Source of the DNA: Natronorubrum halophilum
Lineage (GTDB): Archaea > Halobacteriota > Halobacteria > Halobacteriales > Natrialbaceae
Assembly (NCBI RefSeq): GCF_003670115.1
Contig: NZ_QQTY01000002.1
Coordinates: 868,001-932,000 of the forward strand
Direction: 5' to 3'
Length of the DNA: 64,000 nt
Part shown: positions 21,078-35,597 of the stretch, in pieces
How positions within the stretch are numbered: position 1 is the stretch's first letter
How the letters are laid out: each line of letters starts with the position of its first letter
The notes under the pieces: model-generated
Told to the model about the DNA's origin: nothing
What the model saw: only the letters and a program-made list of their open reading frames with translations
Database searches by the model: none
Program-made: the position numbers and the translations under genes

Positions 21078-21195
21078 AGGTTCCCTACGACGAAGACGGG
21101 TTTAGGATGTCGCCACGGGGTCGTGACTGTCCGGCCCCCGTGTTACTACCGTGCCCGTTCCCGTCGGAGCGCGACCGAGGGGACGCCGGGCGGCT

Positions 21196-21277
21196 ATAGT
21201 AACAACTGAAAGTCAATGCACACCTGATCGCACGACGGCTGTGCGATCGGTGTGTAAATCGTTTCAGTTGTTACTAT
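21196..21277. repeat. 82 bp palindromic dispersed repeat (MITE/REP-like), copy 2
   Basis: Perfect 16 bp terminal inverted repeats (ATAGTAACAACTGAAA / TTTCAGTTGTTACTAT) flank an inner hairpin ACACCTGATCGCAC / GTGCGATCGGTGT. It overlaps the last 14 bases of the eIF2B-like gene and provides its final three residues and stop codon. The related copy at 1128-1208 lies in the opposite orientation. Confidence 0.85.
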
Positions 21278-22127
21278 CGAACACCTGTCGACCGTCGTCC
21301 GTGACGACGCTCTCGAGCAGCGAGACCGGCGTCGCGTCGTAGTTCGGATTTTCGACGGCGAACCCTTCGGCGGGCTCCGGCATGACCTCGCTGCCCGGCC
21401 GAAACTCGTTTTCGAAGACGAATCCCTCGGTGATGATCTTCGACGCCGACCCGAGCACGGTCACCGGCACGTCGAGTTGCGCGGCCGTCGCCGCGATCGG
21501 GAACGTCCCGACGCGGTTGTACAGCGTGTCCTCGACGATGCAGTCCATGCCGACGACGACGCGATCGCACTCCTCGAGGTAGACGCCGTTCGCGCTGTCG
21601 GTGATGAGCGTCGTTTCGATCCCCTCGATGTCGGCGAGCGCCCGCGCCGTCTTCCGGCCGATGTAACGCGGTCTGGCCTCCGTGACGTACACCTCGAAGC
21701 TCTTCCCGTCCGCGACCGCCCGCTCGAGGGCCTCGAGCACCGTCGAGGAGTAGTCGTGGGTCAGCAGCGTCGCGCCGTCCGCGAGGAATTCGGCGGCGTT
21801 TTCGGCGGCCAGCCGCTTGCCGGCTTCGACCCGCGAGACGACCTCGTCGATCTTCTCTCGGGTGTGTCGCTTCGCCGCCTCGACGCTGTCGTGGTCGGCG
21901 TCGGTGACGTCGTCGACGACCTCCCGGACCGCGTTCTGCAGTGACGCGTGGGACGGGTTCGCCCGCCGCAGCACGGAGCCGTTGCGCTCGAGCGAGCGCG
22001 TGTACTCCTCGACGGTAGCAAACTCCCGGTCGACAAGCTCCTCGAGGGCCTGCGTCGCGTGTACGGCCACAACCGAGGAGCTGTGGGTCTGCATCTCCTG
22101 GATTTCCTCGACCGTCTCGTCGATCAT
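21264..22127 (-). CDS. eIF2B-like / ribose-1,5-bisphosphate isomerase family protein
   Basis: 287 residues with the IF-2B fold: GATLLTHDYSSTVLEALERA, VYVTEARPRYIGRKTARALADIEGI, GMDCIVEDTLYNRVGTFPIAATAAQLDVPVTVLGSASKI. Archaeal members include true eIF2B-like proteins and ribose-1,5-bisphosphate isomerases of the AMP pathway; this one lacks the long conserved N-terminal part of full-length isomerases, so eIF2B-like is the safer call. The C-terminal residues SNN and the stop lie inside the 82 bp palindromic repeat, so the natural terminus has probably been replaced. Confidence 0.85.
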   Translation of the reverse strand: MIDETVEEIQEMQTHSSSVVAVHATQALEELVDREFATVEEYTRSLERNGSVLRRANPSHASLQNAVREVVDDVTDADHDSVEAAKRHTREKIDEVVSRVEAGKRLAAENAAEFLADGATLLTHDYSSTVLEALERAVADGKSFEVYVTEARPRYIGRKTARALADIEGIETTLITDSANGVYLEECDRVVVGMDCIVEDTLYNRVGTFPIAATAAQLDVPVTVLGSASKIITEGFVFENEFRPGSEVMPEPAEGFAVENPNYDATPVSLLESVVTDDGRQVFDSNN

Positions 22128-22190
22128 ACCTGCATGGATTCCCGTCAGCGCAAAAGGTGTTCCGGGTGCCGTCAGCGGCCGTGACCGTCC

Positions 22191-22517
22191 TCACTCGCGC
22201 GATTCGAACCCGAAGGTGCGCTGTAGTTCGGTTCCGATTCGGTCGGTGAGTTCCTCGAGAACGACGTCGAACTGGTCGTGGTCAGCAACCGAACCGACGC
22301 GAGCCCGGACGTCGTCGGGGAGTTCGACGCGGAACTCGCCGTCTCCGACGTAGAACGGCTCGCTCTCGCTCAGTACCTTGCGGTCGATGGCGCGGAGCAC
22401 CGTCGAATCGTACCGGCCGTGGAGTTGCTGATAGGCGTTCGAGTACGCCGCCTCGAGTTCCTCGAAGTAGTGTACGTACTTCTCCGCCTCGAACGTCTCG
22501 GGATCGAACTCGGTCAT
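22191..22517 (-). CDS. DUF5783-like conserved haloarchaeal protein
   Basis: 108 residues from the ATG at 22517 (TEFDPETFEAEKYVHYFEELEAAYSNAYQQLHGRYDS). Segments VLSESEPFYVGDGEFRVELPDDV and VVLEELTDRIGTELQRTFGF match the small acidic haloarchaeal family I know as DUF5783. Longer upstream translation is not conserved in character (Ser/Arg/Cys-rich) and is rejected. Function unknown; 60 bp downstream of it begins the eIF2B-like gene on the same strand. Confidence 0.75.
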   Translation of the reverse strand: MTEFDPETFEAEKYVHYFEELEAAYSNAYQQLHGRYDSTVLRAIDRKVLSESEPFYVGDGEFRVELPDDVRARVGSVADHDQFDVVLEELTDRIGTELQRTFGFESRE

Positions 22518-22920
22518 GGTCGATCGTGTGGCGGCGTGCGGGTAAACGGTTCGGGACGGCTTTGGAACGTGACACTCGTCCGGCGTGTTGCTCGAGAACG
22601 GATCGCTCGTGGAACGCGAGTCTCGTCCGACGTATTGCTCGAGGACAGATCGTTCGCGGAACGTGTTGCTATCCTGGCAACGGGGATTGCCACATCCTCC
22701 CCAACCGATTCGTTCGCTCGCGCTCACGGCTACGCCGTTCGCGTCCGCGGCGCTACGCGCCGCGCTCTCGCTCACTCATCCCTCGCGCAGCGTCGTCGAC
22801 CGCCCTCGCGTTCGCTCAGACGGTCGGCAGCGCGCGCCACCGCACGACGGGTGTCAACGGGCGTCGCCTTCCGGTACTCGCGACCGCAGACTTACGTCCT
22901 CGAGTCGCCTAGCTCCGTCG
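22518..22920. other. 403 bp intergenic region with imperfect repeats
   Basis: Holds the 47 bp tandem repeat at 22575-22668, followed by a very GC-rich stretch (22700-22850) in which GTTCGCTCGCGCTCAC-type words recur. No reading frame has a credible start and codon usage. Probably the debris of an old insertion plus the promoter of the 22921 gene. Confidence 0.4.
22575..22668. repeat. two-copy 47 bp imperfect tandem repeat
   Basis: A unit starting CTCGTCCGGCGTGTTGCTCG at 22575 is repeated at 22622 as CTCGTCCGACGTATTGCTCG; each unit ends in GGAACGCG / GGAACGTG. The bases just before the first unit (GGAACGTGACA) look like the end of a third, partial unit. Confidence 0.6.
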
Positions 22921-23244
22921 ATGACCGTCACCGTCCGCTACACCTGTCCCCACTGTAACGCCGTCGTGAGCCTCGAGCGACCGCCGGACCTGGCGGACCG
23001 GTCGGTCACCAAACTCCGGCAGCCGGGGTGGGAGTACGCGAAGCCGGACGACGCTGACCGGGAATCCGCCGACGGCGTCGCGTTCGTCTGCGGCGAGGAC
23101 GGACCGGTCACCGACCTCGAGGGGGAGCCGATCGAGGGCTGCGGCCGACCGTTTTACCTGAACTTCGTCCGCTACGAGCAGGGCGTCGAACTCGAGCCGA
23201 ACCCGCCGACCTACGGCGGTCCACGCTTCGATTTCGAGGGGTAG
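22921..23244 (+). CDS. small zinc-binding-like hypothetical protein
   Basis: 107 residues. N-terminal YTCPHCNAVVSLERPPDL is a CPxC knuckle; a second pair of cysteines (FVCGEDGP... and EGCGRPFYLNFVRYEQG) could complete a zinc ribbon. The rest is acidic with a Pro-rich end NPPTYGGPRFDFEG. Start is ATG at 22921. It lies 62 bp upstream of the Mrp/ApbC gene in the same direction and may be cotranscribed. No function is assigned. Confidence 0.75.
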   Translation: MTVTVRYTCPHCNAVVSLERPPDLADRSVTKLRQPGWEYAKPDDADRESADGVAFVCGEDGPVTDLEGEPIEGCGRPFYLNFVRYEQGVELEPNPPTYGGPRFDFEG

Positions 23245-23306
23245 CGCTCGCGACGGCCGCTCCGTTCGAACACAACCCTTTTCGACGCTGGGAAGCACGT
23301 ACTGAC

Positions 23307-24383
23307 ATGGACGAAGCCGCCGTTCGCGACCGCCTCCGGACGGTCGAAGATCCGGAACTCGGCGACGATATCGTGTCGCTCGGACTTCTCAACGACGTTA
23401 GCGTCGACGGCGAGCACGTCGACATCGATCTCGCGCTCGGTGCACCGTACTCGCCGACCGAAAGCAACATCGCCGGCGAGATCCGCGAACTGCTCATCGA
23501 GGACGGCCTCGAGCCGGATCTCTCGGCGAGCATTCCCGACCGCGACGATTTCAGCGGCGAGGATCAGGTGCTGCCGAACGTCAAGAACGTCATCGCCGTC
23601 TCCTCAGGGAAGGGCGGCGTCGGGAAGTCGACGGTCGCGGTCAATCTCGCCGCCGGGCTCTCGCAGCTGGGCGCGCAGGTCGGCCTCTTCGACGCCGACG
23701 TGTACGGCCCGAACGTGCCGCGGATGGTCGACGCCGACGAGCCGCCGATGGCGACCGAGGACGAAACCCTCGTCCCGCCGGAGAAGTACGGCGTGAAGCT
23801 GATGAGCATGGCCTTCCTGACCGGCGAGGACGACCCGGTTATCTGGCGCGGCCCGATGGTCCACAAGGTCATCACGCAACTCACCGAGGACGTCGAGTGG
23901 GGACACCTCGACTACCTCGTCATCGACCTTCCGCCGGGGACCGGCGACACCCAACTCACGATGCTCCAGACCATGCCCGTCACGGGTGCCGTCATCGTCA
24001 CGACGCCACAGGACGTCGCTTTAGACGACGCCCGGAAGGGCCTCGAGATGTTCGCCAAACACGACACCGTCGTTCTCGGTATCGCGGAGAACATGTCGAC
24101 GTTCGCCTGTCCCGACTGCGGCGGCGAACACGACATCTTCGGCTCCGGCGGCGGCCGGGAGTTCGCCGACACCCACGAGATGCCGTTCCTGGGCTCGATC
24201 CCGCTCGATCCGGCCGTCCGCGAGGGCGGCGACGGCGGCAAGCCGACCGTTCTCGAGGACGGTACCGACACCGGCGACGCCTTCCGGACGATCACCGAGA
24301 ACGTCGCGAACAACACGGGGATCGTCCACCGACGCGGCGTCTCGCAGGGCAGACGAAGCGAGGCCGCTTCGCCCGATCGATGA
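23307..24383 (+). CDS. apbC: Mrp/ApbC Fe-S carrier P-loop ATPase
   Basis: 358 residues. Residues 1-85 form a MIP18/DUF59 domain (EAAVRDRLRTVEDPELGDDIVSLGLLNDVSVDG). Then a deviant-Walker ParA-type ATPase: VSSGKGGVGKSTVAVNLAAGL, Walker B YLVIDLPPGTGDTQLT, and the cluster-binding pair in STFACPDCGGEHDIFGSGGG. Such proteins dimerise around an Fe-S cluster and pass it to target enzymes. The C-terminus is followed by the next gene with an ATGA overlap, so the two are translated together. Confidence 0.95.
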   Translation: MDEAAVRDRLRTVEDPELGDDIVSLGLLNDVSVDGEHVDIDLALGAPYSPTESNIAGEIRELLIEDGLEPDLSASIPDRDDFSGEDQVLPNVKNVIAVSSGKGGVGKSTVAVNLAAGLSQLGAQVGLFDADVYGPNVPRMVDADEPPMATEDETLVPPEKYGVKLMSMAFLTGEDDPVIWRGPMVHKVITQLTEDVEWGHLDYLVIDLPPGTGDTQLTMLQTMPVTGAVIVTTPQDVALDDARKGLEMFAKHDTVVLGIAENMSTFACPDCGGEHDIFGSGGGREFADTHEMPFLGSIPLDPAVREGGDGGKPTVLEDGTDTGDAFRTITENVANNTGIVHRRGVSQGRRSEAASPDR

Positions 24384-24637
24384 CCGCTGACGGCGACGGA
24401 ACCGAGGGCGAGGCGGACGCCGACCCCGCGTTCGACGCCGACCCCGAACGCGTCGCGCTCCTCCGCGCCGTCGCCGACGACGTCCGCGGCGAGACCAGCG
24501 AGAGCAAACAGCTCGCGAACATCCTGTACCGGACCAGCGACCTCTACGATCCCGACGAGGAGACCACTCCCGAGGAGATCGTCCGCAACGTCAAATTCAT
24601 TCTCGAGGTCAACGAGCGCGGCGGACTCGGCCGATGA
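24380..24637 (+). CDS. small acidic protein coupled to ApbC
   Basis: 85 residues, ATG overlapping the apbC stop (ATGA). Very acidic first 20 residues, then a helical region RVALLRAVADDVRGETSESKQLANILYRTSDLYDPDEETTPEEIVRNVKFILEV. Conserved-looking and with good codon bias; no cofactor motif or cysteine. The coupling suggests a helper or partner role with the Fe-S carrier, but this is an inference from position alone. Confidence 0.8.
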   Translation: MTADGDGTEGEADADPAFDADPERVALLRAVADDVRGETSESKQLANILYRTSDLYDPDEETTPEEIVRNVKFILEVNERGGLGR

Positions 24638-24763
24638 GCGGTCGACCGAGTCCGTTTTTACCGATCCGATCGTGGCTCGAGTGCCAGGCGCGTCACTTTT
24701 GCGGTCCCGCGGCCACACTCGAATGTGGGCGCAAATCACCGATCTCGAGCGAACCCCTACGGC

Positions 24764-25396
24764 ATGGACGAGGAGTGTCGGAACTGTCCGGCGCTCTGTG
24801 AGACGCGGACGCAAGTTGTCCACGGCTACGGCGACGTGGGCGCTGATTTCCTGTTCGTCGGCGAGCGACCGAGCGAGCGCGCGGACGAGATCGGCGTGCC
24901 GTTTGCAGCCCCCGATAGCGGCGCGGGCGGAGCTACCGGCGACCGCGGTGGTGACGCGGGGACCAGCCTTCGGCGGATGCTCGAACGGCTGGGGCTCTGT
25001 GATTCGACTTCGCCGCCGGACCGACCCGTCCTCGAGAACGTCTTTCTGACGAACCTCACGCGCTGTCGCGATCCCGATCGGAAGCCGACCGACGAGGAGA
25101 TAGGTAACTGCGATCCCTACCTCAACGCCGAGATTCGAATGATCAACCCCGAGATTCTCGTCCCCGTCGGCGAGCGAGCGCTGGCGGCGCTCGGAGCCGA
25201 GCACACGACGACGCCGGTCGACGAACTCGACCTGTCGACGGCCCACGCGACGCGGATCCGCGGCCGCGGGTTCGAACTCGTTCCCATGATCGACCCGCGG
25301 GCGCAGTCCGACGAGCAGACCCAGGCCTGGCTCGAGAGCTTCGTGGAGCTCATGGCGTCGGACTACCGACAGACGAAGGGACAGCGAGATCGGTGA
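24764..25396 (+). CDS. diverged family 4-like uracil-DNA glycosylase
   Basis: 210 residues from the ATG at 24764. The N-terminus EECRNCPALCETRTQVVHGYGDVGADFLFVGERPSERADEIGVPF has the Fe-S type cysteines (Cys4, Cys7, Cys11) and motif A region of family 4/5 UDGs, though GERPSE replaces GEGPGE. Two more cysteines near residues 101 and 116 (NLTRCRDPDRKP, GNCDPYLNAEI) could complete a 4Fe-4S cluster. The expected His-Pro-Ser motif near the C-terminus is replaced by MIDPRAQ. Its base specificity, or even whether it is catalytic, is therefore open. A TnpB element begins immediately after its stop codon. Confidence 0.85.
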   Translation: MDEECRNCPALCETRTQVVHGYGDVGADFLFVGERPSERADEIGVPFAAPDSGAGGATGDRGGDAGTSLRRMLERLGLCDSTSPPDRPVLENVFLTNLTRCRDPDRKPTDEEIGNCDPYLNAEIRMINPEILVPVGERALAALGAEHTTTPVDELDLSTAHATRIRGRGFELVPMIDPRAQSDEQTQAWLESFVELMASDYRQTKGQRDR

Positions 25397-25520
25397 ACTA
25401 CCCCACCCTACCGCTCGCCTGACGGCTCGCGCCTGAGGGTGGGGCTTCCTGTTTCAACGACGCGCTTTGCATCCACAACCGAGGACACAGGGAGCGCAGT
25501 CTCCACAGGCGTTGATTCGG
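25380..25520 (-). ncRNA. putative TnpB guide (omega) RNA scaffold
   Basis: In TnpB elements the guide RNA overlaps the 3' end of tnpB and continues through the right end into flanking DNA. Here the right-end hairpin (CCCCACCCT / AGGGTGGGG, 25401-25444) sits across the tnpB stop codon, and the flanking bases below 25400 would be the guide. Limits are inferred, not mapped. Confidence 0.4.
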
Positions 25521-26628
25521 AGCGTCCCGCTCCTAACTGCTCGATACCACGAGAAAGAATGTTCCACGCCGCGTTTGCGTCTCTATCCGCCTCGAACCCA
25601 CACGCCGGACACGAGTGTTCACGGACCCACAGAGGCTTGTCCGTCGAAACGCCGCAGGACGCGCACTCTTTGGTCGTTCCGCGTGGGTTCACGGCGACGA
25701 AGTGCGTTCTTTCCCGCTCACACTTGTATTCGAGCATCCGCAGGAACGTCCCCCACGCCGCACCTGCTCGATTGCGAGAGTTGCCCGGCAGTTCGACCAA
25801 GCCCTTCGCGTCCAAGTCTTCGACTGTCACAAGGTCGTACTCGCGGGCGTAGTAGTTCGAGAGCTTGTGGAGGAAGTCACGACGCTTTCGCTTGAGGTCG
25901 GCGTGACGCTCGGCTACGACTCGACGCTGTTTCTCCCAATTCGCGGAACCGTGTTCCTTTCGTGAGAGGTCGCGTTGAGCGCGTTCCAACCGCTCGCGTT
26001 CGTCGGACAGGTTGAGGGATTCGACCACCGTGCCGTCGGTGTCGTGAGCGTACTTGAGAATCCCCACGTCGATACCGACGCACTGATCAGGATTCTCCGG
26101 TTTCGCAGGCGAGTCGTCGGGCGTCTCGACACCGAGGATAGCGTACCACTTGCCGGTGGGTTCCTGCTTGACCGTGACGGTCTTTATCTCGGCGTCTTCA
26201 GGTAGGTAGCGGTGGAAGGTGAGCGGGATTTCTCCAAGTTTCGAGAGCCACAGTTTGGTCCGACCGCTCGTGTTCTTGAGCTTGAAGCCGGATTGACTGT
26301 AAGTGAAACTGCGGTACTCGCCCGGTGCTTTCCACTTGAGTTGGCCGACGCGGTAGCCATTCTCTTTGCGACCGCGAAGCGTCGAGAGATTGTCGTACAA
26401 CCGCTGAACGACTTTCTGAAGGACCTTCGAGTGAACGCTTTTCAGGTCGCTCCACCACTTCTTGAGACTCGACAAAAGTTTCTGCTCGGAGTATGCAGAG
26501 GTGTCGTCGGTGCGGTTGAGTCGGTGGAGGAAGTGGTTGTAGACCTGTCTACAGGTATCGACGGTCCACGCTAACTGCTCTTCGAGAGTGTCGGACGGTC
26601 GGAGTCGATACCTGTAGTTGTAGTTCAT
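25408..26628 (-). CDS. tnpB: TnpB RNA-guided endonuclease (IS1341-type)
   Basis: 406 residues, apparently intact. N-terminal helical/WED region (YNYRYRLRPSDTLEEQLAWTVDTCRQVYN), then RuvC-like nuclease: first Asp in CVGIDVGILKYAHD, Glu in DLVTVEDLDAKGL, last Asp in EADRDANAAWNIL. The zinc finger between them (CASCGVSTDKPLWVREHSCPACG) has all four Cys. TnpB cuts DNA matching its guide RNA next to a short TAM and so helps the element persist. The stop codon lies inside the right-end hairpin. The DUF2080 gene lies 8 bp upstream. Confidence 0.95.
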   Translation of the reverse strand: MNYNYRYRLRPSDTLEEQLAWTVDTCRQVYNHFLHRLNRTDDTSAYSEQKLLSSLKKWWSDLKSVHSKVLQKVVQRLYDNLSTLRGRKENGYRVGQLKWKAPGEYRSFTYSQSGFKLKNTSGRTKLWLSKLGEIPLTFHRYLPEDAEIKTVTVKQEPTGKWYAILGVETPDDSPAKPENPDQCVGIDVGILKYAHDTDGTVVESLNLSDERERLERAQRDLSRKEHGSANWEKQRRVVAERHADLKRKRRDFLHKLSNYYAREYDLVTVEDLDAKGLVELPGNSRNRAGAAWGTFLRMLEYKCERERTHFVAVNPRGTTKECASCGVSTDKPLWVREHSCPACGFEADRDANAAWNILSRGIEQLGAGRSESTPVETALPVSSVVDAKRVVETGSPTLRREPSGER

Positions 26629-26636
26629 CGGTGGTG

Positions 26637-26777
26637 CTACTCGTCAGGCTCGGTCGTTCGGACGACTTTCACGTCTGCGCCACGCCACCGTTTCGGGACG
26701 AGAACGTGAGCGCCGTTGCCGGTTGCTTTGGCCGTCCCGTCGATGACTTCGTGGCCTTCGATTTCATGTCTATCCAT
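26637..26777 (-). CDS. DUF2080 family transposon-associated small protein
   Basis: 46 residues (DRHEIEGHEVIDGTAKATGN, then GAHVLVPKRWRGADVKVVRTTEPDE), matching the DUF2080 family that in haloarchaea precedes tnpB. The VLVPKRWRG segment resembles an AbrB/SpoVT-type swapped-hairpin or small DNA/RNA-binding strand. It stops 8 bp before the tnpB ATG on the same strand, so it should be cotranscribed. It may regulate or assist the transposon genes; this is not established. Confidence 0.85.
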   Translation of the reverse strand: MDRHEIEGHEVIDGTAKATGNGAHVLVPKRWRGADVKVVRTTEPDE

Positions 26778-26942
26778 CACCTGTGTTTACACCTCGTTTC
26801 AACATAAAGGTGGTGGTGGGCCTGTGGGCCGAGTGTCGAACGTGTTTGAGAACCGTGCAGCGCTGTATCCCCTCCCTACTCGCTCCCTTCGGTCACTCGT
26901 TGAGGAAGGGGGCTTAGCGCCTCAATTCAGGTAAGAAACCGA

Positions 26943-27182
26943 CTACCAGTAGGGTCCGGCGCGCCACCGCCTGGACCGCGCACCGAGGATGACCAATCCG
27001 CCGACGAAGGCGACTGTGATCACGAGAACGCCGATCGTCGGCGCGAAGTACTCGCCGCCCGTCTCGAACAGATAGCTGTCGACGAAACTCCAGAGCCCGA
27101 GCGTCGCCAAGCCGGCGACGATCAGGACCCCGAGAAGTCCGACCGACCGCGGGATCGACCGCGTTACTGATTGTTCGTCCAT
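26943..27182 (-). CDS. small two-helix membrane protein
   Basis: 79 residues from ATG 27182 (DEQSVTRSIPRSVGLLGVLIVAG). Two hydrophobic helices at about residues 14-32 and 45-66, separated by an acidic-aromatic loop (FVDSYLFETGGEYFAP), then a basic tail RSRRWRAGPYW. Positive-inside distribution gives both ends in the cytoplasm. Unknown function. Its 3' end touches the left end of the TnpB element. Confidence 0.75.
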   Translation of the reverse strand: MDEQSVTRSIPRSVGLLGVLIVAGLATLGLWSFVDSYLFETGGEYFAPTIGVLVITVAFVGGLVILGARSRRWRAGPYW

Positions 27183-27319
27183 ACTGACCACCTTCCGTCC
27201 CACCACTATAGTTCGTCCGGCGCCGATCCGTTCGGTGATCGTCGACCTCGAGTCCCCGCCGCCGTCCGGCGAGGTGGGGAAGCGCCGCGTTCAAGGGTCG
27301 CGCACGCGGAGTCCTGAAC

Positions 27320-28087
27320 ATGATCGTCGTCGTTCCGGTCGACCCGCCCCGAGAGGGACTCGTGTTATCGTCGCTCGTCGAGCAAACGCCGCTTTCCGCC
27401 GCCGAAGCGGTCACGCTCTACGAAGCGACCGTCATCGACGTTCTTCGGGCCGTCGAGTCCAGCGGTGGCGACCTGCTGATCAACTACCGCGACGCGGACA
27501 CCCTCCCCGCGGCGGTCGCCGATGACGACGCCGAAGCGGAGGTGCGGGCGCTGGCAACCGACGCGCTCGGCGAATTCGAGGAGGAGAGCGGCGCTAACGG
27601 CGAAGGAACCGTCCGATTCGAACGCCAGGTCGGCTCGAGTCGCGCCGCGCGGGTCGGCAACACCGTCACCCACCTGCTCGAGCAGGAGGCGGCGAACAGC
27701 GTCGGTGTCCTCGAGCCGACGGCGCCGCTGGTCGGCCGGACGCAGATCGACGGCACGGCGATGTCGGTCCGCCGTCATGACGTCGTCCTCGGTCCCGCGT
27801 CGGACGGCCGGGTGTACCTCGCCGGCTTTCGCGAGCCGATCGATTTCACCGACGCGTACGCAGTCCCCGAGGTGGCCACGCTGGCCGCACGGAGCGCCGA
27901 AGCGGGACTCGGGGTCGGTTTCGCACCGATGCTCCCAACCGTGGCGACGCCCGCTGGGCTTCGATCGACGCTCGCGATGCTCGAGGCGCGCCGGAGCGCC
28001 GACCAGCCGGGCGCGGCGGCGACGGCTGCAGTCGTCGACGAGTTGGGGCTGGAGATCGGAGACGGAGAGTTGCTCGAGCGAGCGTAG
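27320..28087 (+). CDS. haloarchaeal nucleotidyltransferase-like hypothetical protein
   Basis: 255 residues, acidic. The start IVVVPVDPPREGLVLSSLVEQTPLSAAEAVTLYEATVIDVLRAV and later GVLEPTAPLVGRTQIDGTAMSVRRHDVVLGPASDGRVYLAGFREPIDF resemble the GT-A fold of DUF2064/CofC-like nucleotidyl or glycosyl transferases, with DVVLGPASDGRVYLAG in the place of the family's metal-binding region. The match is by pattern only. In other haloarchaea it would lie just upstream of tRNA-Ser; here the integrative element separates them. Confidence 0.7.
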   Translation: MIVVVPVDPPREGLVLSSLVEQTPLSAAEAVTLYEATVIDVLRAVESSGGDLLINYRDADTLPAAVADDDAEAEVRALATDALGEFEEESGANGEGTVRFERQVGSSRAARVGNTVTHLLEQEAANSVGVLEPTAPLVGRTQIDGTAMSVRRHDVVLGPASDGRVYLAGFREPIDFTDAYAVPEVATLAARSAEAGLGVGFAPMLPTVATPAGLRSTLAMLEARRSADQPGAAATAAVVDELGLEIGDGELLERA

Positions 28088-28128
28088 ACCGATAACCCTT
28101 TTTGAGCGTACGGGAAAGGTGAAGGCGA

Positions 28129-28148
28129 GGTGGGGTGGCAGAGCGGCC
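28129..28148 (+). repeat. attL: fragment of the tRNA-Ser 5' end
   Basis: Identical over 20 bp to the acceptor-stem and D-arm start of tRNA-Ser at 31807; identity stops abruptly on both sides. The native upstream flank of the tRNA should be the sequence at 28088-28128. Confidence 0.85.
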
Positions 28149-28373
28149 CACAAGGCCTCTATTAGCCTTTCTGCGAAATTTGACTGGACTTTTACCCGCT
28201 GGGTGAATCAGACTGCGTTCACTATACCCTGACTGGAGCAGAGAGTGTAAATTCACCAGCCCGATAGAACAGTATTATCGCCAGTAAAGTTGATACCGAG
28301 TAGCTAGATCGTTGTCGGAAGTTGTTTGTATTTTCAGAATTAGTTATATGATAGGTATGGGGGTGTATCTTTG

Positions 28374-28925
28374 ATGTCGAAAGTTGTGCTGAAAGGAGAG
28401 TTCCACTCCAGTAAGGGTGATTTGAAGGAGGAGAAGGAATTAGTGAAACAGGATTTCGATGTTTTAGTCCTAGAGGGTCAAGAAACAGAGTCTGATTATA
28501 GTTTGACAGAGGGATGGTTCCAAATCTCTATTGCAGCTATGTTCTGGCTTGCTGGAAGAATCTATGTTTCGAAAGATATCTTGTTGGACTTGGTCGAGGT
28601 CCAAGATACGGAAGTGATGTTCACGCGAAAAGCTGATTCTGATCTCTTGGAGAATACACCGCTCTCTATGAAATTGTTCTCGGCAATATTGTTCTATACT
28701 TTGGTCCCTGGGAGCGTAGCTGTCGGACTGATATTTCCTAAGATGTGGGGTGCGACTATTCTCTTTCTAGGATTTGTATTGCCTGTTCTGGGAATTCGGA
28801 TTGTCAACACTCGACTAACTCGTGATGAGAAGAACCGTGACAAGATCATGGCGGACAAGATCGCTGATGCTGTGAATGAAGATAAAGATGTTTTGGCAAT
28901 AGTCGGTAATGGTCATGTCAATTGA
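28374..28925 (+). CDS. short TraB-like membrane protein (element cargo)
   Basis: 183 residues, AT-rich codons unlike the host. It resembles a shortened TraB/PrgY protein: N-terminal VLKGEFHSSKGDLKEEKELVKQDFDVLVLEGQE corresponds to the family's GTAHVS...PDVVAVEL region, and the end RDKIMADKIADAVNEDKDVLAIVGNGHVN to its RD.YMA...VVAVVGAGHV motif. Unlike classical TraB (about 350-400 residues) two to four hydrophobic helices lie between the two motifs (about residues 50-70 and 100-140). PrgY/TraB shut down peptide pheromones in enterococci; archaeal roles are unknown. ATG 28374 chosen; a TTG precedes it by one codon. Confidence 0.7.
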   Translation: MSKVVLKGEFHSSKGDLKEEKELVKQDFDVLVLEGQETESDYSLTEGWFQISIAAMFWLAGRIYVSKDILLDLVEVQDTEVMFTRKADSDLLENTPLSMKLFSAILFYTLVPGSVAVGLIFPKMWGATILFLGFVLPVLGIRIVNTRLTRDEKNRDKIMADKIADAVNEDKDVLAIVGNGHVN

Positions 28926-29220
28926 ATAGTAAAGAACCTACCGAATAGTATTGACCTGAATGTTCGTCGCCCCGCCTACGCTAGATTAGACAGACAGCAT
29001 ATCCAAGAGATAGCTTTTCCAATTTTCGAGATGGTATTAGTTCTCTATTCCCTCTATCTTCTCGTCTCTTGGTTCCTGCTTCAAGTAACACGCATCTCTC
29101 CTGATCTTTTCTAGTTGCTTTTAAGACATCTTCTTAAATATTACATTCTCATCGGATTAATTCTAAATGGCTCTGTTGAAACCCTTAGTGAGTTACATAT
29201 CCAGTCGGTAGTTTGAGTAG

Positions 29221-29986
29221 ATGCAGACCCTCCCAAAGTCTCGGTTGCTCCGGTTTGTCGAAGAAGCATTTCAGTTAGCGCAACGTGCCGTAGCTCGATA
29301 CTCCTCAAAGTTCGGAAGACACAACGTATCGAACACTTCTCGACGAACTCATTGAGATGCCCCGTATTCGGAGCGCGATCAACCTCACCGAACTTCCTGC
29401 TCCATCCACGCTATGCAAAGCGTTCGGTAGACTCGATATGGCCGTCTGGAGAATGGTTCTCAATCTCTCTGTTTCACTACTCCCGACCAACGGAGTTACG
29501 GGGATCGACGCTTCGGGCTTCGACCGCAGTCACGCCTCAAAACACTACACAAAACGAACCGAACTCACGATTCAGCAGCTCAAAGTGACGCTACTGGTCG
29601 ATACGAAGCTAAACGCAGTCCTCGATCTACACGTGACGACGACACGAAAACACGATAGCCAGATCGCTCCCTCGTTGATCAAACGCAATCCCGAGCATAT
29701 TGACATTCTTCTCGGTGACAAAGGGTACGACGACCAGAAAATCAGACGACTTGCCCGTCAATACGAAGTTCGTCCACTGATTAAGCATCGTGAGTTCACA
29801 TCGCCCCACAAGGCATGGAACGCACGCTTAGACGCTGATCTCTACGGACAGCGGAGTCAATCCGAGACTGTCAACTCAACACTCAAGCGAAAGTACGGTG
29901 CGTTCGTCCGCTCACGACGCTGGTGGAAACAATTCCGTGAACTCACCATCGCTTGTCTCGTTCATAATATCGACCGATCACTCTGA
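29221..29986 (+). pseudogene. IS5-group transposase, frame broken by internal deletion
   Basis: The ATG at 29221 opens QTLPKSRLLRFVEEAFQLAQRAVARYSSKF, the usual N-terminus, but the frame is lost near 29310. Translation resumes in another frame with TTYRTLLDELIEMPRIRS and continues to the TGA at 29984. DDE motifs are present (GIDASGFDRSHASKHY, LLGDKGYDDQKIRRLA, QRSQSETVNSTLKRKYGAF). From the family length I infer that about 15 residues are missing at the break. Not functional as written unless expressed as a fragment. Confidence 0.8.
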
Positions 29987-30021
29987 GCAGTCAATTCAGG
30001 ATGAAAGTATCATAGAACAGC

Positions 30022-30273
30022 TCAAGCGGATGCAGAACGCCGTTTTGCAGCGTGTACTCCGAGAAGATAGATTAGGATGACGAGAAGTTCGACTACGACT
30101 AACTCGATGACAGTACTGAAAACGAATGCAAGCCCCACTCCTAGAACGAATACAGATGCTCCTACGACTACCGGGGAGCGCGAGCCATACTTTTTCGCCT
30201 CAGAATAGACGAACCACGAGATGAGAGCTTGTACGACGAGGAATATCGGGGTTCCAATACCGAATGCAGGCAT
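30022..30273 (-). CDS. small membrane protein inside the element
   Basis: 83 residues: PAFGIGTPIFLVVQALISWFVYSEAKKYGSRSPVVVGASVFVLGVGLAFVF, then two more hydrophobic stretches and a basic end HAAKRRSASA. Three helices predicted. The VYSEAKKYGSRSP loop resembles the short 'A-K-x-R-G' loops of other haloarchaeal mini membrane proteins. Function unknown; AT-rich like the rest of the element. Confidence 0.5.
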   Translation of the reverse strand: MPAFGIGTPIFLVVQALISWFVYSEAKKYGSRSPVVVGASVFVLGVGLAFVFSTVIELVVVELLVILIYLLGVHAAKRRSASA

Positions 30274-30560
30274 AGAAACATATTTTTCCGTCTATACAAG
30301 TACTTTCGGTGAAGATTGTCCACACCTCTTGACGGAGAGATGAACGGTAACTACGCAGTTCCCATCTACCGACTGTTTCATTCTAGATTGTGTATGAAGA
30401 ATAGGATTTCAACAGAGCCTTCTGAATCTATTCTTTCTACTCAGCACTCCTATTTGATAGCAACCAGTGTGATCGACACTTGCTCCGTTACCTACTTGGC
30501 CTGTTTCTAACGGTTTTTCACAATTTTATTGATAAAGGAACTGCGCTACTATTTTTCCGA

Positions 30561-31658
30561 TTAACCCATTCTATCTAAAGCATCCCTCCGATCCTTGACT
30601 GGAGCTTGATCATATTTCATTGTCGTCTCTGAACGTCTATGTCGAAGTTGACTCTGAGCAGCTGCTAAACCTTCTTCTCGAGCCATGTAGGTCCCCACTG
30701 AGTGTCTAATCGTATACCAGCTAATGTCCCGATCAATATCTGCAATTTCGCATAGATTATCGAGGAGAACACGCAAAGAGGACGAACTGTAAGGGTTGCT
30801 ATGACGTGTTAGCCATAGCGAATCATTGTCGTCGTACTTCTCGTAGAGATCTCGTTCAAGCAACCATCGCCCAAGAATATCAGCTGTTTCCCGCCGAAGG
30901 CTAACAACCCAGTTTTCTTCATTCTTCGATGATTCTTTCTCTGGGATTCGTAAAACGGCATTCTCTACATCCACCCAGTATGTTTTTGCGCGTCCGACTT
31001 CGATCGGACGTAATCCGGCGTCAAGACTTGTATGCACTATAGATGGATATTTGAATCCGTTTGCTCGATTCCAGTCTTCTTGGGTTATCTCTTTCTTAGC
31101 CTTTCCGAAGCGCCGAGCTAAATGTATTTTCCACTTATCGCGTCCATCCGGATCAAGAGCGCTATAGGCGGGAACAGTCCCGTATTCGAGAGATGCTTCT
31201 CGAAGTTTACGACGCTCTTTTTCTGTCACAAAGTCCTTTGGTTGCGAAACACTCGAGCTTCCTTTTAGTTTGATGTCCGGGTCCCATTTGTCTGTCGCTG
31301 AGTGCCACCTGAATAGGGCCTTCAAAGCCAGCTGGACGTTATTCAGATGACTTTTGGTATAATCGTCCTTCACCAGTTCTCGAAGATATAATTCTGCCTC
31401 GTCGTGTGTCATCTGAACAGAGTAGCCGTCTTGACGATCCCATGTCCACCTATAGAACTTGTCAGTGATTGCTGCATAATTTCTGGCGGTGTCGTGGGCA
31501 TATCCCTCAAGTGCTTCGGGGTCTTTTCCGAAGTTCGCAAGCCACTCAATGAGGTCTCGACGGTGGTGTTCGTAGTCTACCCATTGGCGTTCATTCAGAT
31601 ATTCTTCACTCGGGCCAGGGATTAAAACGATACCTTCAACTTTCTCGGTGTCTTTCAT
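30561..31658 (-). CDS. tyrosine recombinase/integrase of the tRNA-Ser element
   Basis: 365 residues. N-terminal SAM-like core-binding domain (HHRRDLIEWLANFGKDPEALEGYAHDTARNYAAITDKFYRW), then catalytic domain with first Arg in TSLDAGLRPIEVGRA, Lys in PEKESSKNEENWVV, second Arg in SWYTIRHSVGTYMARE, His in QSQLRHRRSETTMKYDQ and nucleophile Tyr in TMKYDQAP. It looks intact and so could still be active. It sits 150 bp from the tRNA-Ser gene, its presumed attachment site. AT-rich codons show recent foreign origin. Confidence 0.93.
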   Translation of the reverse strand: MKDTEKVEGIVLIPGPSEEYLNERQWVDYEHHRRDLIEWLANFGKDPEALEGYAHDTARNYAAITDKFYRWTWDRQDGYSVQMTHDEAELYLRELVKDDYTKSHLNNVQLALKALFRWHSATDKWDPDIKLKGSSSVSQPKDFVTEKERRKLREASLEYGTVPAYSALDPDGRDKWKIHLARRFGKAKKEITQEDWNRANGFKYPSIVHTSLDAGLRPIEVGRAKTYWVDVENAVLRIPEKESSKNEENWVVSLRRETADILGRWLLERDLYEKYDDNDSLWLTRHSNPYSSSSLRVLLDNLCEIADIDRDISWYTIRHSVGTYMAREEGLAAAQSQLRHRRSETTMKYDQAPVKDRRDALDRMG

Positions 31659-31662
31659 CGAA

Positions 31663-31734
31663 TCAGCCCCTCAGAGCATGGTTAACAGCGGTTCCAATAC
31701 GATTCAATCTAGCTTCGGTGGAATACGTGTCCAT
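31663..31734 (-). CDS. possible 23-residue leader ORF before the integrase
   Basis: ATG at 31734 opens DTYSTEARLNRIGTAVNHAL followed by RG and a TGA at 31663-31665, only 4 bp before the integrase start. It may be a short cotranscribed peptide or a remnant of an earlier integrase N-terminus. No similarity recognised. Confidence 0.3.
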   Translation of the reverse strand: MDTYSTEARLNRIGTAVNHALRG

Positions 31735-31806
31735 GGTTGCTATGTTGGATTGAAGCCGTATATCGCCTGATTTCGGGGGGTACAAGCCCTAACAGCTATT
31801 AAGCTT

Positions 31807-31890
31807 GGTGGGGTGGCAGAGCGGCCTAACGCGCCTGCCTTGAGAGCAGGTGGCCTCCAAGCCTCATGGGTTCAAATCCCATCCCCACCG
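31807..31890 (+). tRNA. tRNA-Ser (anticodon TGA)
   Basis: 84 nt. Acceptor stem GGTGGGG / CCCCACC with discriminator G, anticodon stem CCTGC / GCAGG around loop CTTGAGA (anticodon TGA), long class II variable arm, T loop in GGTTCAAATCCC. The 5' first 20 bp are repeated at 28129-28148 as the attL of the adjacent integrative element, so its upstream promoter now comes from element DNA. Confidence 0.96.
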
Positions 31891-31942
31891 TTTTCCGCGA
31901 GCGAATACGACGAACGTAGTGAGGAGTCTCTCGAGCGGAAAA
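31891..31942 (+). terminator. inverted repeat just downstream of tRNA-Ser
   Basis: TTTTCCGC (31891-31898) pairs with GCGGAAAA (31935-31942); flanking GAG / CTC extends the stem. Position just after the tRNA suggests a 3' processing or termination structure, but it could also be a remnant of past integration. Confidence 0.4.
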
Positions 31943-32011
31943 CGAAACGATGGGATTTGAACTACGCCGAGACGGTCGTCCTCGCTTCGCTCGGACGCTG
32001 CGACTCGTTTC

Positions 32012-32031
32012 GTTCAAATCCCATCCTCACC
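32012..32031 (+). repeat. copy of the tRNA-Ser 3' end
   Basis: GTTCAAATCCCATCCTCACC matches the tRNA-Ser 3' end (31870-31889) at 19 of 20 positions. An inverted copy of its first 14 bases lies at 31949-31962. It looks like an att scar from a different, earlier integration at the 3' end of the same tRNA. Confidence 0.65.
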
Positions 32032-32086
32032 ACTGTGCATGTGACAGAGTGGGTTGCCCGGACGGCGATTCTCGAGCCCCTCGAGC

Positions 32087-33130
32087 CTACTGGTAGGACA
32101 GTTCGAGGTCGCGCGCTCGGCCCAGCAGGTCCTCGTCGTAGTACGTTTCAGTCTGCTCGGGGCGGGTCCCGTCGATCGCACGGACCTGCTGGATCGTATT
32201 GCGGAAGACCTTGAACGTCGCCTCGTCGACCATCTGACCGTCGAGGGTGACCGCGCCGGTCCCCTCGCGTTTGGCCGCGTTGAAGCGCTCGATCTTGCTC
32301 ACGTCGCGCTCGAGTTCGTCCGGTGTGGGCATGTGGATCGTGTTGGCCTGAATCGTCTGTTTAGGGTAGAGAGACCAGGAGCCGTCGAGTCCGAGGTGGG
32401 CCTCGTGTTCGACCTGATCCGCGTAGGCGTCGGCGTTGTAGTAGGTCAGGCCGGCCCGTTCCTTGAACAGGTCGTCGAACGGACCGCCGATACAGAGCAG
32501 ATCGGCGGCGCTGGCTTCGTTCGAGAGCGCCTCGAGGAGGCCGTCCCAGCGCGGGCGGCCGGTGCCGAGGTCTCGAGCGCCGAGTTCGGCGGCGTAGTCG
32601 ACGGGGCCGAAGACCAGCGCGGTGAGCCGGGATTCCGCGCCGAACTTCGAAATTTCGCGGAGATCCGAGCGGGCGCGCCCGGTCTCGACGATGATCGAGA
32701 GGCGGATCGAGCCGTCCGCGTAGCCGTGTTCGGCTTCGGCTTCCGCGACGACTTCGGCGGCGCGCTCGACGTCTTCGACGCGGCCGACCTTGGGAACGAC
32801 GACGCCGTCGAGTTCGTCGCCGATCTCGCCGACGAGTCGGTCGATCTGTTCGCGGCCGCGGTCGCGGAAGGACTCGTCCTCGTAGCTCCACTCGACGCGG
32901 GGCCAGATCTCGCCGGGGAAGTCGTACTCGGGAACGAGTTCGATCGTGTTCTCGAGCCCCTCGTCTTTCATGTTCGGGGCCGTCCCGTCCTCCATGTCAG
33001 GGACGAGCCAGTCGGGAGCCTGGAAGCCCTCGGCCTCGAGGCCCGAACGGAGGTACTTCGCCGAGTCGTCTTTCGGGACGCCGGCCGGTGCGGTCTGGAA
33101 GGTTCGGCAGAGTCGGATGTCGTCGGTCAT
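32087..33130 (-). CDS. beta-methylmalyl-CoA/malyl-CoA lyase (HpcH/HpaI-CitE family)
   Basis: 347 residues. TIM-barrel lyase with LVPDMEDGTAPNMKDEGLENTIE, the Mg-binding IIVETGRARSDLREI, and LVFGPVDYAAELGARD. In the haloarchaeal methylaspartate cycle this type cleaves beta-methylmalyl-CoA to glyoxylate and propionyl-CoA (and makes malyl-CoA from acetyl-CoA and glyoxylate). Its place directly after the mesaconyl-CoA hydratase gene supports that assignment over plain citrate lyase beta. Last gene of the five-gene minus-strand cluster; 54 bp from mch. Confidence 0.92.
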   Translation of the reverse strand: MTDDIRLCRTFQTAPAGVPKDDSAKYLRSGLEAEGFQAPDWLVPDMEDGTAPNMKDEGLENTIELVPEYDFPGEIWPRVEWSYEDESFRDRGREQIDRLVGEIGDELDGVVVPKVGRVEDVERAAEVVAEAEAEHGYADGSIRLSIIVETGRARSDLREISKFGAESRLTALVFGPVDYAAELGARDLGTGRPRWDGLLEALSNEASAADLLCIGGPFDDLFKERAGLTYYNADAYADQVEHEAHLGLDGSWSLYPKQTIQANTIHMPTPDELERDVSKIERFNAAKREGTGAVTLDGQMVDEATFKVFRNTIQQVRAIDGTRPEQTETYYDEDLLGRARDLELSYQ

Positions 33131-33184
33131 GTGTATGAGGTTGTGTTTGGAGTCGTCTGCAGTCGGTGTCGTGCGTCGATCGAG

Positions 33185-34327
33185 TCAGCGGGAGCGCTTT
33201 CGAATCTCCGCCGTGCGCGTGCCCGAGTAGACGGGTTCGTCGTCCTGGTTGAACGCGACGTGTTCGAACCGGACGGTGCCCGCCTCGTCGCTGCCCGCAT
33301 CGTCCGTGGCGGAGAGCACGCGCGTGAACGCGTAGACGGTGTCGCCCACCGCGACGAAGGTGTGGAACGATTCGTCGTCGAAGCCGACCTCGCGCCAGGT
33401 TCGCTCGTCGGAGCGGGCGTGACCCAGCGCCGTCGAGCGGGTGACGTCGCCGTAGGTGACGATGCCGCCCGACGGCGAGTCGGCCATCACGTCGACGTTG
33501 TGGTGTTGTTTGGCCGTGTTGAGCGTCGCGAGGGGCAGGGAGGCGACGGTGACGTCGTCCTGCGTCCGGCCGCGCTCGTGCCGGTAGGCGACGGCCGCAT
33601 CGCGACCGTCGGCCTCCTCGAGGGCGTCGACGAAGTCCTCGAAGTAGCCGCCGTCGGGTGCGACGAACGCCGCCGGGAGAGTGGGTTCGTCGTCGTCCGC
33701 GTCGGCGGCCGCGGCCCCACCGTCGGTTCCCTCACCGTTCCCGTCCGCCGCGACGGGGTCGCGCCGCGGGATCATGTTCGTGCGCTCGTAGGAACAGAGC
33801 ACGTCGCCGGTCTCGGCGTCCGTTCCACGGGTGCGCCAGGAGACGATGCCGTACTTCGGTCGGGAACTCGAGGTCGCCCTATCGACGACCTCGCTTTCGA
33901 CGTGGAGTTCGGTGCCCGCGTAGACGGGTGTCTCGGGGAATCGCACGTCGGTGCGGCCGAGGAAGTAACCGCCCTTCTCGCTCAGGTCCTCGACGGTGAT
34001 ACCCAGCGTGGCGGCGGTGAGGTAGTCCGGGTGAATCGGCGGCTCCTCGTAACCGCGGGCTTCGGCGGCGTCGGTCCGCCAGTAGGCGGGGTCGTGGTTG
34101 AGCGTCTGGCTCATCCAGGACTCGTTGCCCCAGCGGGTGAGCGTGAGCCCGGGATCGTGTTCGACGACGTCGCCCTCGGCGAAGTCCTCGAAGCAGTTGC
34201 CCTTCTCCCTGGTCTCGACCCGCTCGAGCGCCCGCGCGAACGTGTCGGGGTCCGTCAGGTCGATCGGTTGCGGATCGCTTCGCGCTCCGCTCCCGTCGTC
34301 GGAGTTTCCTCGCGATTCCCTAGTCAT
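33185..34327 (-). CDS. mch: mesaconyl-CoA hydratase (double MaoC domain)
   Basis: 380 residues: N-terminal hotdog with NCFEDFAEGDVVEHDPGLTLTRWGNESWMSQTLNHDPAYW and a C-terminal MaoC-like domain (QDDVTVASLPLATLNTAKQHHNVDVM, HTFVAVGDTVYAFTRVL). Hydrates mesaconyl-C1-CoA to beta-methylmalyl-CoA in the methylaspartate cycle. The two halves are joined by an acidic, Asp/Ala/Gly-rich linker (about 208-230). Start codon overlaps the 3' end of mal by 8 bp, so translation is coupled. Confidence 0.92.
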   Translation of the reverse strand: MTRESRGNSDDGSGARSDPQPIDLTDPDTFARALERVETREKGNCFEDFAEGDVVEHDPGLTLTRWGNESWMSQTLNHDPAYWRTDAAEARGYEEPPIHPDYLTAATLGITVEDLSEKGGYFLGRTDVRFPETPVYAGTELHVESEVVDRATSSSRPKYGIVSWRTRGTDAETGDVLCSYERTNMIPRRDPVAADGNGEGTDGGAAAADADDDEPTLPAAFVAPDGGYFEDFVDALEEADGRDAAVAYRHERGRTQDDVTVASLPLATLNTAKQHHNVDVMADSPSGGIVTYGDVTRSTALGHARSDERTWREVGFDDESFHTFVAVGDTVYAFTRVLSATDDAGSDEAGTVRFEHVAFNQDDEPVYSGTRTAEIRKRSR

Positions 34328-35597
34328 CTGCGGTCACCTCGTCGGTGGTGGTTGTTAACGCTTCCCGTTCGCGTCGGGCGATCGTTCGTCGCATCTCGTT
34401 TTCGACGATCATGTAGCCCTCGTCGAAGCCCATGCCGGGCTTTGCGAGCACCTGCGCCGCGTCGGTCGCGAGCGCGACGTGAGCGCAGGCACGCGCTGAG
34501 GTGTCTGTCTCGTTGCAGGTTCCGCCGAGGTACGCCCGGGTGTCGGTCCCCTCGCAGTAGCGGACCGCCTGTCCGCTGCGGTGGATGCCGCCGAGGTCGG
34601 GCGTCTTGATCTGTACGAGATCGGCCGCCTCGGCGTCGACGAACGCCCGGACGTCCTCGAAGGTGTTACACCACTCGTCGGCGACGATGTCGACGGAGAC
34701 GCCGGCGGCTTTGAGCCCCTCGCGGAGTTCGACCATCGCCTCGATCTGTGCGGGACGGCTGCCGGCGTCCATCGGCCCCTCGATCTGGATCGGGTAGGGT
34801 GCGGCGGCGTCCTCGAGTGCGGCGAAGTAGTCGACGACTTCCTCGCGGTCGTAGGGTGCCTCGAAGATCTCGCCGATCATGCCGTAGACGTCGATGTGGA
34901 ATCGGGGCTCGTAGCCGTCGGGACCGAGTTCCTGCGAGCGTTCGGTCAGCCACTCCACGTACTCGAGCAGCGTCTCGCCGTTCTCGCCGATCTTTTCGAC
35001 GCTGTTGATCAGCGCGTGTGGCAGGACGGGGACGCCCTTGACGAACATCTTCTCGGTGTTGATGTAGCGATTGTCGCCGGACTGGCCGAAGACGGGCACC
35101 GGCTCCGTCGCGGGCTCGGTGCCGAAGGCGTCGGCCAGCACGTCCGTGCGCGTCGCGTTCTCGGCTTCGGCCGCGGCAGCCAGCAGCGCCTGCGAGACGC
35201 CGTAGCGAATCGCCGTGTGGAGACGGTCGCCTTCGACCCGCATCTCCTCGAGTAACTCGGCGTTCTCGAGGAACGCCGTCGCGTCGCGCCCCTCGAGTTC
35301 GTCGGCGACGGGGCCTTCGATGATCGGGGCGTACTCCTCGGCTTTGAACAGCGGGTCGCGTCCGCCGGCACCGGAGTACTGGACGGCGGCGCAGTCGCCG
35401 CGGACGACGGTGCCGTCCGCGAGTTCGACGTCGACGATGATGCTCTCGCCGGCCTGGCGAATCTCGTCGAAGCCGTCGGTAACGGGCTCACCGTCGTAGA
35501 TGAAGCCGTCGTGTTCGGCACCGTGCTTGATCGCGCGCTGGTCGTCGAAGAAGAACCCGGCGTAGCCGGGCGTGGCGTACATTCCTGTAATGATCAT
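34320..35597 (-). CDS. mal: methylaspartate ammonia-lyase
   Basis: 425 residues. Enolase-superfamily fold: N-terminal capping domain TPGYAGFFFDDQRAIKHGAEHDGFIYDG, then barrel with HIDVYGMIGEIF, PIQIEGPMDAGSRPAQIEAM, VADEWCNTFEDVRAF and catalytic-Lys region LVQIKTPDLGGIHRSGQAVRY. Eliminates ammonia from 3-methylaspartate to give mesaconate. The 4 bp ATGA-type overlap with glmE above and 8 bp overlap with mch below show a tight operon. Confidence 0.96.
   Translation of the reverse strand: MIITGMYATPGYAGFFFDDQRAIKHGAEHDGFIYDGEPVTDGFDEIRQAGESIIVDVELADGTVVRGDCAAVQYSGAGGRDPLFKAEEYAPIIEGPVADELEGRDATAFLENAELLEEMRVEGDRLHTAIRYGVSQALLAAAAEAENATRTDVLADAFGTEPATEPVPVFGQSGDNRYINTEKMFVKGVPVLPHALINSVEKIGENGETLLEYVEWLTERSQELGPDGYEPRFHIDVYGMIGEIFEAPYDREEVVDYFAALEDAAAPYPIQIEGPMDAGSRPAQIEAMVELREGLKAAGVSVDIVADEWCNTFEDVRAFVDAEAADLVQIKTPDLGGIHRSGQAVRYCEGTDTRAYLGGTCNETDTSARACAHVALATDAAQVLAKPGMGFDEGYMIVENEMRRTIARREREALTTTTDEVTADD

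Follow-up and report, generated by a model that had tools for sequence, protein, structure and literature searches.

A truncated TIKI/TraB-like membrane protein gene in an element integrated at a tRNA-Ser gene of Natronorubrum halophilum

To our knowledge, little is known of the archaeal members of the TIKI/TraB superfamily. The locus described here raises the question of whether a short reading frame in Natronorubrum halophilum encodes such a protein as the cargo of a mobile element and, if so, what role the protein might have. Proteins of the TIKI/TraB kind cleave signalling proteins in animals (PMC12329661), and in plasmid-bearing bacteria they govern the response to pheromones (PMC7117660). 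A small accessory form, carried by plasmids and integrated islands beside defence genes, would offer a compact handle on the archaeal role. The window, meaning the whole stretch of DNA that was analysed (64,000 nucleotides), is part of a 4.67 Mb genome.

An element at the 5' end of a tRNA-Ser gene

The 3,678 bp (3.68 kb) between 28129 and 31806 are best explained as an element inserted at the 5' end of a tRNA-Ser gene, because eight of nine congeners carry an intact tRNA-Ser at the equivalent spot and the repeat starts at nearly the same distance from the flanking gene. The element and its target comprise the following features:

28129-28148, + strand: left attachment repeat of 20 bp, a copy of the 5' end of tRNA-Ser, in exact direct repeat with 31807-31826
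29169-30419, no strand assigned: insertion sequence (IS) with 17-bp inverted repeats and near-matching flanks TTCTAAAT/TTCTGAAT (repeat search; flanks read directly)
29357-29986, + strand: IS transposase frame, 209 aa, 89% identical to a relative in locus L036 that is longer at 273 aa
30561-31658, - strand: tyrosine-recombinase integrase, 365 aa (PHROG integrase, E 9.6e-22), 147 bp from tRNA-Ser
31806-31891, + strand: tRNA-Ser (tga), the target gene (tRNA call), with the right attachment repeat at 31807-31826

All 10 genomes of the genus have the gene on the left flank (27320-28087), and in the window the repeat starts 45 nt after its last codon. The site is empty in eight of nine congeners, where an intact tRNA-Ser lies 44 nt (seven genomes) or 63 nt (one genome) past this gene, and the integrase was not matched in the stretches fetched from these eight. 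The ninth congener (G352) has two tRNA-Ser copies 6.0 kb apart around an integrase that is 70% identical; the TraB-like protein was not matched within its element at this same site. The GC content is 0.46 in 28149-31806, compared with 0.65 in 20000-28128 and 0.66 in 31892-40000. The marks of a tRNA-targeted element are all present, and the proposal of an earlier sequence-only reading that the gene is mobile-element cargo is borne out by the integrase, the 20-bp tRNA-derived repeats on both sides, and the empty site in relatives. The closest integrases (61-70% identity) lie beside tRNA-Ser(tga) in 8 of 8 loci examined and are accompanied by different ORFs, and in none of the eight stretches fetched around them was the TraB-like protein matched. 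Apart from the IS, the TraB-like gene is the only recognisable cargo of the element.

The near-matching flanks of the IS look like an aged target duplication, and the IS is the sole full-length copy found in its own genome, with partial matches elsewhere. The IS also contains an 83-aa membrane-type ORF (30022-30273, - strand), in the stretch that separates the transposase from the right inverted repeat. Since the related IS in L036 does not match this DNA, the ORF may be a passenger. Two further observations concern the surroundings. The 3' end of tRNA-Ser (31870-31889) is repeated with 95% identity 142 bp downstream (32012-32031), perhaps a remnant of a further integration event at this tRNA, and a 406-aa ORF at 25408-26628 (- strand) has, by eye, the look of a TnpB-type transposon protein.

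A compact gene family and an in-frame stop

The ORF at 28374-28925 encodes 183 amino acids (P0001), beginning VVLKGEFHSS...LVLEG and ending IVGNGHVN. We read it as a real gene and not a chance frame, because 25 of 391 haloarchaeal genomes contain a homologue and because each end has residues conserved without exception in the 21 aligned sequences. The protein search (E<=1e-3) gave 27 matches in these 25 genomes, its own included, which belong to 20 of 86 genera; seven other congeners sampled in that search had no homologue. Five plasmid records also contain a homologue, with the provisos that two of the five are the same-length plasmid of one species and that three overlap with the set of genomes. 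Relatives share between 70% (Haloferax gibbonsii ATCC 33959) and about 30% identity with the window protein. A search of genome contigs returned no loci with the single protein and six with an alignment (A2). On the phage side, P0001 had no PHROG match, two scans of viral contigs gave no relative, and phage records gave no match. Among the matches listed in literature searches, there was no paper on the family.

Alignment A1 consists of the window protein and 20 full-length relatives. Left out of it were a sequence with a run of N (L038), one identical to the protein of L039 (L040), a fragment at a contig edge (L048), and three weak matches that were not recovered by tblastn (L049, L051, L053), whereas the two distant sequences L050 and L052 were moved to a separate alignment (A8). 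The family is compact, at 241-286 aa and typically about 240 aa, figures that depend on the chosen starts. The residues invariant in 21 of 21 sequences are K7, E9, H11, S13, D16, E20, E34, T84, R85, G118, L130, R155, A160, G178, and H181. The gene and its landmarks are as follows:

28374-28925, + strand: TraB/TIKI-like membrane protein gene, nonsense-truncated, 183 aa (homologue search, alignment, models)
28395-28406, + strand: first motif G-E-F-H, residues 8-11, with E9 and H11 invariant in 21/21
28473-28475, + strand: codon of Glu34, at the end of strand 2, invariant in 21/21
28623-28628, + strand: codons of Thr84-Arg85, at the end of strand 3, invariant in 21/21
28674-28817, + strand: predicted membrane hairpin inside the core, about residues 101-148 (hydropathy; two long helices in both models)
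28836-28838, + strand: codon of Arg155, invariant in 21/21
28905-28916, + strand: second motif G-x-x-H, residues 178-181, with G178 and H181 invariant in 21/21
28923-28925, + strand: premature in-frame TGA; all 20 relatives in A1 extend 56-66 residues further
28926-29114, + strand: rest of the ancestral frame, no longer translated, with 62 codons and a TAG (29112-29114), alignable with the relatives

The window copy is truncated by a nonsense codon, because the relatives read on past this point and the frame beyond the TGA still matches them. The stretch at 28926-29114 is homologous to their C-terminal tail and membrane helix. Past the TGA, 33 of the 62 compared codons specify the same residue as the H. 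gibbonsii copy (one of the 62 faces the stop of that copy), and the differences number 25/12/36 at the first, second, and third codon positions, a pattern that suggests selection on this stretch for much of the period since the two diverged. Upstream of the TGA, 127 of 183 residues are identical to the H. gibbonsii copy, and dN/dS for this pre-stop part (NG86) is 0.21/2.79, with dS saturated. As a result of the truncation, the interval 28374-28925 spans no more than roughly three quarters of the gene as it was ancestrally. The sequence-only reading had described a version at half the usual length; the family is indeed compact, but much of the shortness of the window copy comes from the premature TGA and not from a design of its own, and so its brevity has two causes. 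The window copy retains the motif residues. Because it lacks the last part of the core as well as the C-terminal helix, it is probably inactive and decaying.

An unlikely alternative is that an error of sequencing or assembly produced the TGA and that the window copy is intact: the coding pattern that persists past the stop would fit it, but the element shows signs of decay otherwise, namely an IS with a shortened transposase frame. In practical terms, the gene in the window calls for annotation as a truncated copy.

Relationship to the TIKI/TraB superfamily

The window protein falls under every curated profile cut-off. Its top Pfam match is PF04187 (ChaN) at 20.6 bits (E 4.7e-4; cut-off 27.7), followed in the superfamily by PF01963 at 15.8 bits (cut-off 26.8) and TIGR00261 at 14.7 bits (cut-off 178.35), and an unrelated ThiS-like model scores between the two Pfam families at 18.5 bits (E 0.0022). 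When ten relatives, including the distant L050 and L052, were scanned with Pfam, PF01963 matched nine, always from profile position 211-216 to 243-262 and with a best score of 18.2 bits; PF04187 matched five and PF05139 two, none of them above the cut-off. We take PF01963, PF04187, and PF05139 to form one superfamily. Part of this grouping follows PMC6254334. Unrelated Pfam models reached similar scores, though each in few proteins. The C-terminal GxxH segment of PF01963 is present in the sense that nine of ten relatives match this same profile stretch. The first motif, GTxH in 8 of 8 haloarchaeal TraB proteins, is absent, and ExH stands there in 21 of 21 family members.

Profile-profile alignment (hhalign) of the family with eight haloarchaeal TraB proteins gave a probability of 93.9 and an E-value of 1.6e-7 over just 46 C-terminal columns. 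The family profile has some match (E<=0.001) in 324 of 391 genomes, and many of the matches listed fall in long frames, from profile position of about 158. The profile of A1 also finds the TraB of its own genome, which is itself above the PF01963 cut-off and is the one TraB checked with that model; in this large TraB gene, the PF01963 match starts 310 bp beyond the window's right end, at G000:C2:932310. A search of 116 haloarchaeal genomes with PF04187 gave zero matches, with the gene of P0001 itself among those missed. Searching PDB sequences with the family profile returned no TIKI chain; it gave triosephosphate isomerases (E 0.03 to 0.88) and one designed TIM barrel (E 1.4), which we set aside as probable chance matches.

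A further likeness lies in the order of the invariant residues. The residues given as essential in VvRRSP are Glu-3900, His-3902, Glu-3930, His-4030, and Arg-4001 (PMC6254334), and by order and spacing, the basis on which the two were compared, E9, H11, E34, R155, and H181 of the family reproduce the RRSP series of E-x-H, E, R, and H. The intervals from H to E and from R to H are 28 and 29 residues in RRSP, compared with 23 and 26 in the family.

An AlphaFold2 (AF2) model of the H. gibbonsii homologue from seven sequences (pLDDT 83.3, pTM 0.75) has strands at 4-9, 30-36, 80-85, and 173-178 with helices in between, long helices at 97-120 and 123-148, and a C-terminal helix at 207-244. The model of the window protein (pLDDT 77.4, pTM 0.62) again contains both long helices, and the window protein is hydrophobic at about residues 101-148; the membrane helices that had been noted between its two ends are supported by hydropathy and by the models alike. 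Foldseek with the H. gibbonsii model found nothing in the PDB at E<=0.001, the best row being unrelated, and its top row in a viral library was a TraB family protein from a Marseillevirus (E 2.3e-3, prob 1.00, TM 0.40). The top hit in a VIA rerun was 8b6h_DQ (Z 10.4, 5.5 A, 165 residues), a chain that the PDB calls 'TraB family protein'; this rerun covered Foldseek's best 1000 rows, and the absence of other families from it carries no meaning. Unrelated SonM methyltransferases (Z 9.2-9.8, 3.0-3.2 A, 108-115 residues) were tied with TraB by the rule of the tool. HopBA1 (Z 8.9, 4.3 A, 146 residues), Bcr135 (3b55; Z 8.5, 3.9 A, 145 residues), and EreC (Z 8.3, 4.5 A, 154 residues) came next, and PMT (Z 7.0) and RRSP (5w6l; Z 6.5) were in lower rows amid SRP GTPases (about 7) and others. 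For the window model, TraB again headed the VIA rows (Z 8.7 over 162 residues at 6.7 A), in a tie with a methyltransferase (Z 8.5), and was second in the viral library (E 0.05, prob 0.87).

The model alternates strands and helices, and TraB, HopBA1, Bcr135, and EreC are among its VIA rows, but the unrelated methyltransferases are tied with TraB. The predicted fold by itself provides moderate evidence. The superfamily reading becomes persuasive because the fold rows agree with the motifs and the profiles. Membership of the TIKI/TraB superfamily is in our judgement supported, not proved, and the compact haloarchaeal family would be a new subfamily of this known superfamily. The relation to TraB/PrgY suggested earlier accordingly holds at the superfamily level, through weak Pfam matches, the hhalign result, and the first place of TraB in two fold comparisons. 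The profile search that had been proposed as a check linked the family to TraB by hhalign and missed all curated cut-offs; structure prediction placed TraB at the top of VIA, but in a tie with methyltransferases and with nothing from Foldseek in the PDB.

Genomic context, proposed function and known systems

Relatives of the gene lie on plasmids and mobile islands, several beside integrases and defence-type genes. The neighbours analysed were 113 of 171 ORFs of 110-900 aa from 21 loci, hand-picked within about 4-5 kb on either side, together with the integrase of the window; 13 ORFs of more than 900 aa and the near-duplicate locus L035 were omitted. As controls, 20 regions in 20 of the same genomes provided 177 ORFs, of which a random 114 were used. 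With PADLOC (E<=1e-5), 77 families were matched among the 114 neighbours and 12 among the 114 controls, a tally that counts families, several of which one protein can match, and that compares mobile regions with mostly chromosomal ones. Pfam Phage_integrase was found in 7 of 114 neighbours (one being that of the window) versus at most 1 of 114 controls, whereas the total of Pfam families matched was 103 for controls and 65 for neighbours. Ten neighbours were also scanned singly with PADLOC, of which five matched, two of them as QatC, and five did not.

No conserved partner gene was found across the loci; the one cluster common to eight loci is an opposite-strand overlap of the gene itself, and the remaining clusters occur in at most five. 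Integrases lie near the relatives in L028, L029, L032, L050, and L052, and defence-type neighbours include PDC-S11 in L037, ThiF/E1 in L056, and a metallo-beta-lactamase-fold protein in L041 that matches several defence models. In L028 and L032, the TraB-like gene adjoins a QatC cassette, for which identities between the two loci are 78% for the 159/182-aa gene, 80% for the 141-aa gene, and 59% for QatC. This three-gene cassette (about 155-180 aa, 140 aa, and QatC) occurs in 10 of 371 genomes (L028, L032, L206-L213). A constant Qat component was rejected as an identity for the TraB-like gene, which stands beside the cassette in two of the 10 genomes and is absent from the fetched stretch in the other eight. 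Word searches found neither 'TIKI' nor 'TraB' in the main text of PMC7159879 (eLife 2020) and PMC12419801 (eLife 2025), and no 'TraB' in the QueC family paper PMC13329287. Separately, in the region L050:7508-15335, an integrase at a tRNA-Glu precedes the distant homologue, a second tRNA-Glu is called 7.7 kb away, and a gene beside the homologue has a weak, below-cut-off HEPN match.

The computations establish homology within the family, the invariant residues, the truncation, and the integration. We propose with moderate confidence that the window gene is a truncated member of a compact family of TIKI/TraB membrane proteins, carried as cargo of the tRNA-Ser element. Intact members are predicted to be membrane-anchored hydrolases, probably peptidases, with a putative active site formed by the ExH, E, R, and GxxH residues, whose invariance suggests that the site is probably hydrolytic. 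The two-helix hairpin after strand 3 and the C-terminal helix would tether the core to the membrane's inner face; this core is probably cytoplasmic because no signal peptide is seen by eye and a positively charged loop follows the second helix. The target may be something at the membrane that is important to invading or competing elements or viruses. A role in conflict between elements or viruses and the host, which draws on guilt by association, is offered more tentatively, at somewhat short of an even chance. The broader idea that compact membrane-inserted TIKI enzymes are unrecognised modular effectors of immunity or counter-immunity, acting at the inner face and swapped among cassettes such as that of QatC, with the window as a fossil, is a speculation that we consider rather unlikely.

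The sequence-only reading had suggested exclusion or signalling, and one alternative is exclusion or self-signal shutdown in the style of PrgY/TraB, in which a peptide or receptor is degraded so that the host neither takes up nor answers the same element. Superfamily kinship with TraB, carriage on plasmids and integrated elements, and the example of PrgY, described as a plasmid-borne membrane peptidase thought to work outside the cell (PMC7117660), all speak for it. However, the core of the present family is predicted to be cytoplasmic and inspection by eye shows no signal peptide, the gene was not matched in any of the eight stretches fetched for sister elements that share the integrase type, and the neighbours of the relatives suggest defence or mobile-element conflict in preference to signalling; we regard exclusion as quite improbable, and pheromone-type signalling finds no support. 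A catalytically dead TIKI fold with a structural or regulatory role at the membrane has precedent in superfamily members without the catalytic set, such as PMT (PMC6254334), but E9, H11, E34, R155, and H181 would not be expected to remain invariant in 21 of 21 sequences without chemistry or binding, which makes this account very improbable. Of the ten relatives scanned, PF04187 matches five and PF01963 nine. The least probable alternative is a ChaN-type membrane protein that handles haem or a cofactor without hydrolase activity, for although PF04187 is the top Pfam match and the GExH motif presumably resembles that of ChaN, the match is below its cut-off and there is no haem family among the 25 listed of 65 Pfam families in the 114 neighbours.

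A putative membrane-anchored hydrolase of the TIKI/TraB type can be compared with several known systems. Like haloarchaeal and archaeal TraB (PF01963, TIGR00261), the family has the C-terminal segment R-D..A..........V.AVVG.GH..GI..L and, by eye, an R after strand 3, a hydrophobic insert before the C-terminal segment, and a hydrophobic tail; in the eight haloarchaeal TraB proteins, the insert follows the D-R of strand 3, again by eye, and so has a corresponding position. Unlike them, it has about 240 aa instead of about 425-590 aa in the eight aligned TraB proteins, carries GExH and not GTxH, falls under the family cut-off, and occurs in 25 of 391 genomes, whereas the broader profile search matches something in 324. 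A second, more varied family of short haloarchaeal TIKI-like membrane proteins, of about 210-300 aa (A8: L050, L052, L121-L127), resembles it in profile-profile comparison (prob 98.8 over 196 columns), in the hydrophobic insert, and in the E, R, and GxxH found in 9 of 9 members, but it is less uniform in the first motif, with ExH in 5 of 9 sequences as aligned, and its members L050 and L052 are without the C-terminal membrane helix by hydropathy. The enterococcal PrgY/TraB proteins are likewise membrane proteins of the same superfamily on mobile elements; the haloarchaeal family is presumably shorter than the PrgY/TraB of enterococcal pheromone plasmids, and it differs from them in its predicted inner-face core. 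Finally, RRSP, Bcr135/EreC, and HopBA1 are similar to the family at the level of the model (Z 6.5-8.9), and RRSP shares E-x-H, E, R, and H in the same order with similar spacing, whereas the membrane hairpin within the core sets the family apart from all of these proteins.
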